Under the pieces are notes generated by a model. That model saw only the letters and a list, made by a program, of their open reading frames with translations. It did no database searches and was not told the DNA's origin. DNA of 64,000 nt. Origin: Alkalicella caledoniensis (GTDB taxonomy: Bacteria; Bacillota; Proteinivoracia; Proteinivoracales; Proteinivoracaceae). The position numbers were made by a program, and so were the translations under genes. The DNA is taken from contig NZ_CP058559.1 in the NCBI RefSeq assembly GCF_014467015.1, positions 2,356,001-2,420,000 of the forward strand, in the 5' to 3' direction. Positions 18,215 through 48,501 of this stretch are shown in pieces. Numbering within the stretch: position 1 is the stretch's first letter; each line of letters opens with the position of its first letter.

Positions 18215-18439
18215 TTAGCCTCCCCCAACTGGAGGGAAAAGGGCCAAGGTATCACTATCCTGCAAGATTGTGTCTAGCTTCTGGTGCCGGCCGTTTATCA
18301 TGATGATTGCTACCTCTTTTACGGGGATATCTAAAGATTCTATCACTTCTTTAGGTGTAGTTCCTTGTTTTAAGTCTAACACCATTTCCTTATGGCGATT
18401 GATTCTGAAAGTTGCAAATAACTTTACTTTAATCTGCAT
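18215..18439 (-). CDS. Small MoaD/ThiS-family sulfur carrier
   Basis: A 74-residue ubiquitin-fold protein ending in PPVGGG; a C-terminal Gly-Gly is the thiocarboxylate-bearing end of MoaD. Start 18439 is chosen because GGGAGGTG precedes it; an upstream in-frame ATG would put that ribosome-binding site inside the gene. It is the last gene of the AOR-maturation cluster and probably supplies sulfur for pyranopterin (tungsten cofactor) synthesis. Confidence 0.85.
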   Translation of the reverse strand: MQIKVKLFATFRINRHKEMVLDLKQGTTPKEVIESLDIPVKEVAIIMINGRHQKLDTILQDSDTLALFPPVGGG

Positions 18440-18515
18440 ATATTCACCTCCCATATTCACACTATACTAGCTATGCTACTGCTAGTAAAGAAGGTAGTCC
18501 CTAAAATCAACTATG

Positions 18516-19709
18516 CTATGGACAAGCAATAATTCGTCTGGCCCATAGACATTCTCCACAGGAAGGGCTATTTCCCCAGCAATCCATTTCGTTAGTATCT
18601 GTATAAGTACACCCTTCTAAGGCTCTACAGTCTGTACAAGAAGGAAAGTGGTTTTCGTTTACGGCTCTTCTAAAGTTGACATATCCAGAGTCCATCCAGA
18701 TGTTTTGTAGGCTGGTATTATTAACATTACCCACATAACAGGGAAAAATTTCTTTTTTCCTTCCATAAATATAACAATGGTAAGAATGCATAAGAGCATA
18801 ACACGGACTAACTTCTCCTAGATAATTGATAGATAACGTATTATCTTTTACAAACTTACAGCTGCGCTCTGTTCTCAACTTCATATTAGACATCTGGGCT
18901 TTGATAGTGGTTAGTAGGGAGTCGTTACCAAACATACGACCAGTATCATCCATGTCATATACAATTTCATCCTTCATAGACTCATGGTAAGGAATCAAAT
19001 TGCTTACAATAATTTGACTTGCCCCTAGCTCATAGGCCATGCGGATTAACTTAGGTAAACTATTGTAGTTTTTTTTCATGGCCACAAACTCAATACCTAG
19101 CTCTGGATTTCTAGACTTTAGTTTTCTTTTCATTGCTTGCAACTGGGCAATATTTCCTGAAACACTCTGGAAGTCGGCACCTTGGCGGATGGAGTTGTAT
19201 TCTTCCTCTTCGGGACTATCTAAGGAAGTAAAGAGTACATCCAGCTCTAGGTCGATTAACTGTTTAATATTCTCTTTTGCCAAGTAAGAACCATTGGTAA
19301 TCATCTCTACTTTTACACCAAGGGCTTTTACTTCTCTTAACATATCAAAAATTCTGGGGTGCATCATAGGTTCGCCAAATCCACCAAAATGAACAGATTC
19401 TAACTTTGGTAATTCTTTAAGGCTTTTTAAAATATTTACAAAGGTACTCCACTCCATATGTAGCTCAGAATCATGCCATGAACTACGGATACAAGTGATG
19501 CAATCAAAGTTGCATTTTGTTGTTACCTCAATATAAACTCTTTTTATGTCAGGTTGTAAGGGAACTAATCGGTACCCATCCTCCGTAGTAATAATTAGAA
19601 CTTCTTGCTCTTTTTCTAAAGGCAATTTAATACTGCCATCTTTTTCAATCTTTGATTTTTCTCCTGTAGAAAACAAGCTAGTGTCTAGACTATTGATTTT
19701 TTTCTTCAT
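18516..19709 (-). CDS. Radical SAM/SPASM protein, tungsten-AOR maturase type
   Basis: A 397-residue protein. The radical SAM cluster motif is CNFDCITC (about residues 87-94), the SAM-binding GGFGEP follows, and the C-terminal SPASM-like cysteine region ends CGECLWARRIIACP. Proteins of this type are encoded beside aldehyde ferredoxin oxidoreductases and are thought to modify the cofactor or the enzyme. GGGGGTGG lies before ATG 19709. It sits between two MoaD-like genes, 25 bp after the larger one, in one leftward unit. Confidence 0.85.
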   Translation of the reverse strand: MKKKINSLDTSLFSTGEKSKIEKDGSIKLPLEKEQEVLIITTEDGYRLVPLQPDIKRVYIEVTTKCNFDCITCIRSSWHDSELHMEWSTFVNILKSLKELPKLESVHFGGFGEPMMHPRIFDMLREVKALGVKVEMITNGSYLAKENIKQLIDLELDVLFTSLDSPEEEEYNSIRQGADFQSVSGNIAQLQAMKRKLKSRNPELGIEFVAMKKNYNSLPKLIRMAYELGASQIIVSNLIPYHESMKDEIVYDMDDTGRMFGNDSLLTTIKAQMSNMKLRTERSCKFVKDNTLSINYLGEVSPCYALMHSYHCYIYGRKKEIFPCYVGNVNNTSLQNIWMDSGYVNFRRAVNENHFPSCTDCRALEGCTYTDTNEMDCWGNSPSCGECLWARRIIACP

Positions 19710-19734: not shown

Positions 19735-20067
19735 CTATTCCCTGCCTTTTATTTTAAAAGCTGCGGGATTCCCTTGGTTTTTACTGTAAAATCCCATGGC
19801 TATCCGGTATGGGCCAGGACATCCTGGAGGGAGGAAGGCGACCCTGTCGCCAGGGTGAATAACATAATCTAATGCTTGAACAAATCCATTGACAAAAATG
19901 ACTTCAACTTCATCCCAAGAAACCCCCATTTTGTGGGCTAGTTCTGTACCTTCCATAGGCCCTTCTAAATTTATTATTACAGGCATCGAACCATATTTCT
20001 TTCGAAGGAACGCATCTAAATGAAGAAACCCTCTAACCTCAATGGTCTTTTTATCTTCTTCAGCCAT
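19735..20067 (-). CDS. MoaD/ThiS-like protein with extended C-terminus
   Basis: A 110-residue ubiquitin-like protein. The MoaD-type phrase PGDRVAFLPPGCPGPYR appears near residues 80-97, but instead of ending at Gly-Gly the chain continues about 20 residues (RIAMGFYSKNQGNPAAFK). Start 20067 is chosen for AGGAGG eight bases upstream. If it works as a sulfur carrier the tail must be cleaved, as in some AOR-linked MoaD proteins; otherwise it may be a structural partner of AOR. It is separated from AOR by a terminator. Confidence 0.75.
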   Translation of the reverse strand: MAEEDKKTIEVRGFLHLDAFLRKKYGSMPVIINLEGPMEGTELAHKMGVSWDEVEVIFVNGFVQALDYVIHPGDRVAFLPPGCPGPYRIAMGFYSKNQGNPAAFKIKGRE

Positions 20068-20170
20068 AAGATAACCTCCTATAAGATTAAATCTAATTTT
20101 CAAAGTAAATAATTTTATGCTAAGGACTGCACAAAATGAACATACAGTCTTAGCTGGAAAGGTTATAAAA

Positions 20171-20252: not shown

Positions 20253-22010
20253 CTATTCGTTATCTTCGTTTTCAAAATTATATACTTGATCGATTTCTTC
20301 AGGAGTAAAGTCCCAAACTGCATTATGTGGAGGACATGGCTCATACTCGAAGAATTCAGGCAATCTGTCATGGGCGTTAGTAAAGCCAGCAGCTTTGTTG
20401 AATTTACGTTCAACTTTAAGTACAGACTCGCCAAGTTTATCAACATCTTCGGAAGTTAAGTTAATGCCATATTGAGCATTAATCATGTCGATTAGAGCTT
20501 GATATCCTCCAGGATTATCAGCAACACCAAAATATACGAATAAACACATACCTGTGCTATCAACAGCAGCTGTTCCTATTTGCATAGCACGGGAATATTC
20601 GATTTGACCCTCTTTTTTAAGTGGATCTATATCTGCGCCTATCTTTAGTATGTTGCCTGAAATACAGTAACCTGCAGTATGATCAGCTCCCATAGGAGTT
20701 GTAGCATATGTTAAGCCAATACCCTTAATTGGACGTGGGTCATAAGCTGGGATAGCTTGGTCCTTTACTACAGGAGTTCTGTAAAGTCCACAGGCTTTAC
20801 CTACCACAGCGGTACCACTGCCTATAAGCCTCCCTAAAGGAGTAGGCTTGCGGATTTCTTTAATTGCTTCTAAAGCAGCTTTACCATCGCCCCAAGGTAG
20901 TAAGCCACCCTCCATAGCAGTAGCTATAGCAACTGCAGTTTCTATACTATCAATACCGATATCGTCCATTTCACGGTCGCAATAAGCAATATCATCTAAG
21001 TTTTGAATACCAGCATCTGCACCAAGTCCCCAAATAGTTTCATATTCGAAACCACTGGTTATATATTTACCATCTTTGTCTGGGTACCATTGAGAACACC
21101 TGATGACACAGCCGGCATGACAGCCATGGGACACTTTGCCTTCTCCGCCACGTTCTGTGATAGTAGCATTTAATGTTTCACCAGAAATATTGTCGTTGTG
21201 CTCGATGCGTCCAGCTGTAAAGTTATTGGCTGGTAAACCACCAGCTTCGTTTAAGATATTAACTAATACGTTAGTACCGTACGCGGCTAGACCTTGGCCA
21301 GCAACTGGATGATCTAATAATGCCTTAGCAAACACTTTAGAAGCTGCTTTGAATTTCTCTGGGTCGGCTATAGAGACTTTAGCAGCGCCAGTATCATCAA
21401 TTACAACCGCTTTTATTTTCTTAGAACCTAAAACTGCTCCTAAGCCCCCACGACCTGCACTACGAATGTTGCCTTCTGGATCTTTGAAAGAAATATTGGC
21501 AGAGGGTAAGCGGTGTTCTCCTGCGGGCCCAGTGATACCAACACCAACTTTTTCTCCATACTTTTCGCTTAATATTTTGATAGCTTCGTAGTTACCACAT
21601 CCTCCAATGATTTCCGTTGGAGCTTCATCAATAGTGACTCCATTCACATCTACCTTGATTACATAAAACTTGTCATCTGTAGGCATTCCTTCGATTACCA
21701 GGGCTTTAATACCCATTTTAGCCATTTTTTGAGAGAAAGAACCACCAGTGTTACTTTCTTTAATAGTGCCTGTTAGTGGACTTTTAGCACCTACAGAGAG
21801 ACGTCCTGAGTTTGGTGCACTAGTACCGCTTAATAACCCAGGTGCAAAAATTATTTTGTTGTTTTTTCCTAATGCATGGCAAGTAGGTTTTACTTCATCA
21901 GCAATAAAATTAGAAGTAAGAGCACGTCCGCCTAATCCTGCATATTTAGCAGGTACTTCTTCGGTAGAGACTTTTAATGAAGTCATGTCAATTCTGATAA
22001 ATTTGTTCAT
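20253..22010 (-). CDS. aor: Tungsten-containing aldehyde:ferredoxin oxidoreductase
   Basis: A 585-residue AOR, slightly shorter than archaeal enzymes. N-terminal pyranopterin-binding domain phrases are seen (YAGLGGRALTS, GRLSVGAKSPLTG). Cluster cysteines lie in GCHAGCVIRCS (about residues 298-308) with a further cysteine in STGMCLFVYFG near 495. It oxidises aldehydes to acids with ferredoxin as acceptor, or the reverse. It is the first gene of the leftward cluster with MoaD-like and radical SAM genes and is preceded by a sigma-54 promoter. Tungsten rather than molybdenum is inferred from the family. Confidence 0.95.
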   Translation of the reverse strand: MNKFIRIDMTSLKVSTEEVPAKYAGLGGRALTSNFIADEVKPTCHALGKNNKIIFAPGLLSGTSAPNSGRLSVGAKSPLTGTIKESNTGGSFSQKMAKMGIKALVIEGMPTDDKFYVIKVDVNGVTIDEAPTEIIGGCGNYEAIKILSEKYGEKVGVGITGPAGEHRLPSANISFKDPEGNIRSAGRGGLGAVLGSKKIKAVVIDDTGAAKVSIADPEKFKAASKVFAKALLDHPVAGQGLAAYGTNVLVNILNEAGGLPANNFTAGRIEHNDNISGETLNATITERGGEGKVSHGCHAGCVIRCSQWYPDKDGKYITSGFEYETIWGLGADAGIQNLDDIAYCDREMDDIGIDSIETAVAIATAMEGGLLPWGDGKAALEAIKEIRKPTPLGRLIGSGTAVVGKACGLYRTPVVKDQAIPAYDPRPIKGIGLTYATTPMGADHTAGYCISGNILKIGADIDPLKKEGQIEYSRAMQIGTAAVDSTGMCLFVYFGVADNPGGYQALIDMINAQYGINLTSEDVDKLGESVLKVERKFNKAAGFTNAHDRLPEFFEYEPCPPHNAVWDFTPEEIDQVYNFENEDNE

Positions 22011-22056
22011 TATATTAAACCCCCTTTAGATAATTTTGTTCTCATAGTTAAAACAT

Positions 22057-22072
22057 TGCAATAAATGTGCCA
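22057..22072 (-). promoter_or_regulatory. Sigma-54 (-24/-12) promoter of aor
   Basis: On the minus strand the sequence reads TGGCAC-ATTTA-TTGCA, an exact match to the TGGCAC-N5-TTGCA consensus, 47 bp upstream of the aor start codon. Transcription would need RpoN and an enhancer-binding ATPase. Confidence 0.85.
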
Positions 22073-22162
22073 AAAGAAGGAGGTTGGAGGGAAAATAAGA
22101 ATGCTTTGAATACAGTGTTCTGTTATTAAAGTAAATAGGACATTTATTATAACTATATCAAC

Positions 22163-22213
22163 TGTTCCTAAATGGAGCAAAAAATCAAAGGAAAATTGCT
22201 CTATTTTGGAACA
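22163..22213. promoter_or_regulatory. Paired dyads upstream of the aor sigma-54 promoter
   Basis: Two 18-bp arms (22163-22180 and 22196-22213) are inverted copies with 16 of 18 bases matching. Each is itself a TGTTCC-N5-GGA(G/A)CA-like dyad. They lie 91-141 bp upstream of the -24 element, the usual place for enhancer-binding-protein sites. The rest of the 22011-22502 gap shows no gene. Confidence 0.7.
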
Positions 22214-22502
22214 ATGTATCAATTTATAACACCCATACTTCAGTAGTTTAGCATGATACTAAAAAATGCTAGATTGAAAGGCTGTCAAAAATACATTATA
22301 ATTCTCTATAAAAAGGTTATATAATCTACTGAATAAAAACTATGAAAAAGATGTATAATCAGATGAAAACCTTAGTTATCCTATCAGATACTAGAAATGC
22401 AACCTCAAGTTGCCTAAAAGCAAAGATAAGTTGGTTGAGTTATTACATAGATAGAAGGATAATTAGTATAAAGACTTTATATACAAGGTAAGGGGGAGGA
22501 AA

Positions 22503-23042
22503 ATGAGTTTTGGCGAAAATTTGAGAAAACTGAGAAAAGAGAGAGGTCTTTCTCAGGAACAGTTAGCTGAGAAGATCAATGTTTCCAGACAAGCTGTATC
22601 AAAGTGGGAGCAGGGTGGGGGTTACCCAGAAACCGAGAAAATAATTTTGATTGCAAAGAATCTTAATGTGTCTTTAGACTATCTATTAGTAGGAATTGAA
22701 AGTGAAGAAAAAAGTGAAATGCGGAAAGAAAAAAATGTGGTCCCCACAGGGAAAATATCAATTAGAACATTTGATGGTAAAACTGTAGTGACATGCCATA
22801 AAGTAAGTGTCTCTAATGTGATATTAGCAGGTAAAGATGAACCTAAGTATGTTCTAAATGGGGTTGATAAAGTTTCTTTTTGGGGTGAAAACACTACTAC
22901 TTTAGGTTGGTATGCCAATGAAGAAGATATAAAGAAAGAAATTGTAGACATAACAAAGGCAATTAATGGAGGTTTACAAGCATATGATTTAAAATACGCT
23001 GCAAAAGTTAAAATCGGGATTATAGGGGTTAAACTAGAATAA
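22503..23042 (+). CDS. XRE-family transcriptional regulator
   Basis: A 179-residue protein. Residues 1-60 are a Cro/XRE helix-turn-helix (LRKLRKERGLSQEQLAEKIN, then SRQAVSKWEQG). The C-terminal about 100 residues (KISIRTFDGKTVVTCHKVSVS onward, first part quoted) form a beta-rich domain I do not recognise; similar tails occur in clostridial XRE proteins. GGGGGAGG precedes the ATG. No obvious partner gene: the next gene is 330 bp away. Confidence 0.85.
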   Translation: MSFGENLRKLRKERGLSQEQLAEKINVSRQAVSKWEQGGGYPETEKIILIAKNLNVSLDYLLVGIESEEKSEMRKEKNVVPTGKISIRTFDGKTVVTCHKVSVSNVILAGKDEPKYVLNGVDKVSFWGENTTTLGWYANEEDIKKEIVDITKAINGGLQAYDLKYAAKVKIGIIGVKLE

Positions 23043-46900: not shown

Positions 46901-46916
46901 TGGCATGCTATTTGCT
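46901..46916 (+). promoter_or_regulatory. Sigma-54-like promoter before the GH1 gene
   Basis: TGGCAT-GCTAT-TTGCT, one base from the TGGCAC-N5-TTGCW consensus with correct GG/GC spacing, 152 bp before the start codon. The rest of the 46681-47067 gap shows no gene and no antiterminator-type hairpin I could recognise. Confidence 0.55.

Positions 46917-47049: not shown

Positions 47050-48501
<1,452 letters not shown>

Follow-up and report, generated by a model that had tools for sequence, protein, structure and literature searches.

Comparison of the Alkalicella caledoniensis genome with its relatives indicates that the operon of the tungsten-type aldehyde ferredoxin oxidoreductase (AOR) gene aor is very likely driven by a sigma-54 promoter together with a three-dyad UAS of the activator AorR (L006), which would act in trans and would formerly have lain beside the gene of a different AOR (AOR2). 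The gene for the activator of aor very probably lies at a distance of 315 kb, next to what is left of another AOR operon that was once under its control. The sites, their geometry and conservation, the co-occurrence with AorR, the orthology and the synteny were all computed here, starting from a 64,000-nucleotide stretch of DNA, hereafter referred to as the window.

The aor gene (20253-22010, minus strand) encodes a 585-aa protein containing the Pfam domains AFOR_N and AFOR_C, and the solved structures nearest to its product are AORs. It is followed on the same strand by a gene for a MoaD/ThiS-like sulfur carrier (19735-20103; Pfam Ub-Mut7C, above the cut-off), giving the arrangement expected of an aor-moaD target operon, and by a gene for a radical SAM/SPASM maturase of tungsten oxidoreductases (18516-19709), which is identified as a dedicated maturase by its NCBIfam TIGR04317 score of 427.5 bits against a cut-off of 380. 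A second MoaD/ThiS-like protein (18215-18460, minus strand; Pfam ThiS) is encoded by the final gene of the probable operon, and this gene order is repeated in locus L028. The AOR shares AFOR_N and AFOR_C with the enzymes of Pyrococcus furiosus (1aor) and Clostridium autoethanogenum (PMC12727526), for whose AOR/AFOR family a reversible acid/aldehyde chemistry is known, but it belongs to a separate clade of shorter proteins. The AOR is 93% identical to its counterpart in genome G001 (GlyRS, 75%; AorR, 61%), and a close relative of this aor is absent from four genomes of the same family. Given that high conservation is usual among AORs, these sequence comparisons are no more than suggestive of an acquisition of aor by horizontal transfer.

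The sigma-54 promoter sequence that the sequence-only reading had placed before aor was confirmed at the stated coordinates. The element TGGCACATTTATTGCA (TGGCAC-ATTTA-TTGCA, -24/-12; 22057-22072, minus strand) matches TGGCAC-N5-TTGCA exactly and lies 46 bases from the aor ATG (22010), which is preceded by a GGGGG ribosome-binding site; the transcript is predicted to start at approximately 22046. The -24 GG and -12 GC elements, at a spacing near TGGCAC-N5-TTGCW, and the geometry of the site are kept in 13 other species. Within 64 kb, the chance expectation of the pattern with up to one mismatch is 0.91, which is not significant. Genome-wide, TGGCAY-N5-TTGC occurs 42 times versus four times for the reversed control, indicating that such sites are mostly real in this genome. 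RpoN is encoded by a single gene in this genome (Sigma54_DBD, E 1e-59).

Two other modes of aor expression were considered and rejected: no sigma-70-like promoter directed at aor was found, and Rfam gave no match to a Mo/W cofactor riboswitch, or to any other family, across the window. Elsewhere in the window, a family 1 glycosidase-like gene (47068-48501) is preceded, at a distance of approximately 150 bp, by a second sigma-54-like site, TGGCATGCTATTTGCT (46901-46916, plus strand), and two PRD-type activator candidates (L016 and L017) are encoded elsewhere in the genome. In addition, eight sigma-54-like sites are clustered within 16 kb at G000:C1:783470-799672, near a gene for a 903-aa sigma-54 activator (795137).

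Upstream of the promoter, the same reading had described a pair of TGTTCC-N5-GGARCA dyads. Both sites are present, and their 18-bp arms (22163-22180 and 22196-22213) are inverted copies identical at 16 of 18 positions, each representing a TGTTCY-N5-RGARCA dyad; the number, however, has to be revised from two to three, because a third dyad at 22215-22231 had been missed. The proximal dyad, TGCTCC-ATTTA-GGAACA (22163-22179, minus strand), has its centre 99 bp upstream of the -24 element, counted from the first T of that element. The middle dyad, TGTTCC-AAAAT-AGAGCA (22197-22213, minus strand), follows 34 bp from it, and the distal dyad, TGTTATAAATTGATACA (22215-22231, minus strand), a further 18 bp away in the same register as in the relatives. 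Measured to the -24 element, the three centres lie at 99, 133 and 151 bp. All are of the TGT-N11-ACA type; the two strong dyads read TGT-N11-GCA or TGC-N11-ACA, whereas the distal dyad reads TGT-N11-ACA and is weak, with three mismatches.

A genome-wide search for the dyad, which had been proposed as a check, gave a mixed outcome: single dyads are not enriched (28 versus 45 in the control), but the aor pair is the only pair no more than 100 bp apart among the genome-wide dyad matches. A larger AorR regulon was rejected on these grounds, further AorR targets in this genome being ruled out by pattern search only. With a triple-dyad matrix trained on 12 relatives only and with the window left out, the array in the window scored 50.3, the top score among the 190,496 positions of its own genome that were tested.

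The arrangement is conserved across species. Among 79 loci that encode relatives of this AOR, 13 of the closest relatives carry a sigma-54 site at 62 to 101 bases from the start codon of aor, on its upstream side, with dyads farther upstream, and the register of dyads and sigma-54 site is fixed while the distance to the ATG varies over this range. When up to three mismatches were allowed, three dyads with centres 18 and 34-35 bp apart were found in the window and the relatives. In the window and 11 of the 13 relatives, 99-103 bp separate the proximal centre from the first T of the -24 element; Alkaliphilus serpentinus (137 bp) and Dethiosulfatibacter (71 bp) depart from this range. Across these 14 upstream regions, we counted 49 dyads when up to three mismatches were tolerated, versus 8.5 in shuffled sequences; at a limit of one mismatch, the counts were 17 versus 0.06. 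The earlier proposal that the dyad may be the recognition sequence of an activator gains support from the constant geometry that these candidate sites show across the 13 other species.

The presence of the array also follows that of the putative activator. The triple matrix gave at least 28.3 for all 14 aor promoters of AorR-bearing genomes, defined as those with an orthologue of at least 50% identity (L032 was counted by its adjacent activator gene), and at most -14.7 for each of the four genomes tested that lack such an orthologue (G008, G013, G014 and G015). Because the relatives are phylogenetically non-independent, this co-occurrence is taken as support and not as a formal test. At three loci (L034, L039 and L049), the aor activator sites overlap the final codons of an adjacent aorR, so that the enhancer and the coding sequence of a DNA-binding domain share the same DNA.

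These comparisons also bear on a reading unrelated to sigma-54, in which the dyads belong to the divergent gene at 22503, which encodes a helix-turn-helix protein, either as operators of this gene or as sites of the repressor. The dyads do lie within the 492-bp intergenic region that the two divergent genes share, and a sigma-70-like promoter at 22274-22302 is directed at the helix-turn-helix gene. The relatives, however, have a different upstream gene, yet the distance of the dyads to the aor sigma-54 site is unchanged, and the dyad pattern is present wherever AorR is present. We therefore regard this reading as highly improbable and interpret the dyads as candidate activator sites.

The sequence-only reading had predicted a dedicated activator encoded outside the window, and the gene inventory agrees: the genome encodes 17 convincing sigma-54 activators (EBPs), none of them within the window. 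A search for such genes near other AORs, also suggested in that reading, proved informative, as the aor-adjacent EBPs found in Alkaliphilus, Anaerovirgula, Natronincola, Lutispora and others all point to L006. This gene (L107:9663-11549, corresponding to C1:2061662-2063548) is intact, lies 315 kb from aor and encodes a 628-aa protein with GAF, PAS, sigma-54 AAA+ and Fis HTH domains. L006 is the best own-genome counterpart of every aor-adjacent EBP, with 50-62% identity over approximately 620 aa, and the second-best EBP of the genome reaches roughly half of its bits or less. In a maximum-likelihood tree, L006 groups with the aor-adjacent EBPs of Natronincolaceae (support 99/97), and it is the sole EBP of this genome in the enclosing clade, which contains all Clostridia aor-adjacent EBPs. 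It is likewise the only one to carry the recognition helix of that clade, GIGRNTLYRKI. In addition, L006 is orthologous to an orphan EBP of Geosporobacter (G002:C1:4424140).

That the promoter is sigma-54-dependent but its dyads are bound by an EBP other than L006 appears quite improbable. Fifteen clostridial EBP groups share TGT-N(10-12)-ACA motifs, according to PMC6615313, which makes cross-recognition possible in a genome with 17 convincing EBPs. However, L006 stands alone in the aor-adjacent clade with its helix, and a matching triple dyad is found at the end of the L006 gene and of its orthologues. We accordingly treat L006 as the putative AorR of this genome.

Two other assignments were rejected. 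The best NCBIfam match of L006 is DhaR (NF008485), and its 419.4 bits fall below the equivalog cut-off of 551; L006 resembles DhaR/AcoR-type activators in having GAF and PAS domains followed by AAA+ and Fis HTH domains, but differs from DhaR in target and neighbours as well as in this score. The AOR-adjacent EBPs of Geothrix/Acidobacteria (L062, L063 and L082) are 40% identical and fall outside the AorR clade, and no dyads of the AorR type were found at L063.

The neighbourhood of aorR points to a former target. Genomes of the same family carry an AorR orthologue (70-71% identity in G017 and G019, 53-54% in G018 and G020) directly upstream of the AOR2 operon, whose AOR is approximately 34-38% identical to that in the window and which has its own radical SAM protein, a MoaD-like protein and sometimes ThiF. 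In these genomes, the EBP gene carries an intact triple dyad at its 3' end, upstream of AOR2. The gene order in G019 is HCP, PlsC, AorR, AOR2, rSAM, MoaD, SbcD, SbcC and GlyRS; in the present genome it is HCP, PlsC, AorR, OYE, SbcD, SbcC and GlyRS, with AOR2-rSAM-MoaD missing, and no AOR2 was found elsewhere in this genome. In G024, the last gene of the AOR2 operon is the OYE gene.

A decayed triple dyad was detected where aorR of the present genome terminates (L107:11537-11610, corresponding to C1:2063536-2063610); its matrix score of +7.8 is the highest among the 37,995 positions of the surrounding 20 kb, whereas the ends of 14 other EBP genes of this genome scored -22 or lower. Taken alone, this array is of moderate significance (approximately 1% for the 270-bp stretch searched), and it could be a chance match in a genome that never had AOR2, the relatives having gained it. 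Each of its dyads has at least three mismatches, and tblastn detected no AOR2 coding remnant beside aorR. On the other hand, its position and its spacing (19,33) match those of the intact array in G019, and the flanking genes are the same ones. Independent remnants accompany other orphan aorR genes as well: those of G001 and of both Geosporobacter species are followed by a decayed triple, after which comes the C-terminal half of a MoaD in G001 (E 3e-12) and, in the Geosporobacter genomes, a gene for ThiF with 62-65% identity to the ThiF of an AOR2 operon. A chance origin therefore seems unlikely, and the fossil array becomes strong evidence only in combination with G001, Geosporobacter and the synteny. 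Together, the orphan-aorR remnants and the synteny suggest that the old neighbour of the activator was deleted repeatedly, and aorR appears to survive in genomes that carry, at another locus, an aor with matching dyads.

Two further loci deserve mention. The Lutispora genome G007 keeps both AOR types (L178 and L179), each with its own AorR and triple dyad. In Clostridiales GWB2_37_7, an intact triple dyad and sigma-54 site are located at the aorR 3' end (L183:7852-8025, minus strand) without a downstream gene on the same strand, and are directed, in antisense orientation, into the end of a pair of maturase and MoaD genes; this array may be either what remains of the promoter of an AOR2 operon since lost or the source of an antisense RNA.

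Under the proposed mechanism, the GAF/PAS sensor domain of AorR would detect a signal that is probably aldehyde-, acid- or redox-related. AorR, acting in trans from its distant locus, would occupy the three dyads (spacing 18 and 34 bp) through its Fis-type helix, probably as a higher-order oligomer; approximately 100 bp of AT-rich DNA would loop, allowing it to contact sigma-54 polymerase at -24/-12 and open the promoter, so that the aor-moaD-rSAM-moaD transcript would begin near 22046. The binding of AorR, the dependence on RpoN, the looping and the nature of the signal are what we infer from the computed features. As to history, aorR would once have been located directly upstream of AOR2, whose deletion would have left the decayed triple dyad at the aorR end. 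Whether the targets were actually exchanged, with AorR losing AOR2 and now serving in trans a distantly related, horizontally transferred aor operon that already carried the three-dyad code, seems to us evenly balanced. If so, the three-dyad enhancer code would be a portable plug by which one sensor takes over incoming AOR operons of different clades.

The general circuit has already been predicted: AorR, sigma-54 and aor-moaD were linked in Clostridium and Geosporobacter in 2019 (Nie, Dong and Yang, PMC6615313). According to that study, multiple UAS are common, 38 EBPs are unlinked from their targets, and 65% of clostridial EBPs control one operon each, a figure that the single strong target of AorR fits. 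The system described here resembles that AorR regulon in its sigma-54 promoter, Fis-HTH EBP, inverted TGT...ACA sites and aor-moaD target. It differs in that the operon also includes genes for a radical SAM maturase and another MoaD, and in having three sites of fixed geometry and an unlinked activator beside the place of a second AOR operon, apparently lost. Relative to the main text of that study, three features are new: a fixed geometry of three sites that both AOR clades share, the place where the activator is encoded, and a fossil enhancer that would record the proposed target exchange.

The only precedent for the regulation of tungsten AOR that we found in the literature is a computational prediction. 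The present analysis leads from a sequence motif to a circuit that can be put to the test, its proposed activator, sites and target each being specified. Furthermore, the intact linked, unlinked and fossil arrangements form a natural series in which a sigma-54 activator and its target operon become separated while the enhancer geometry persists.
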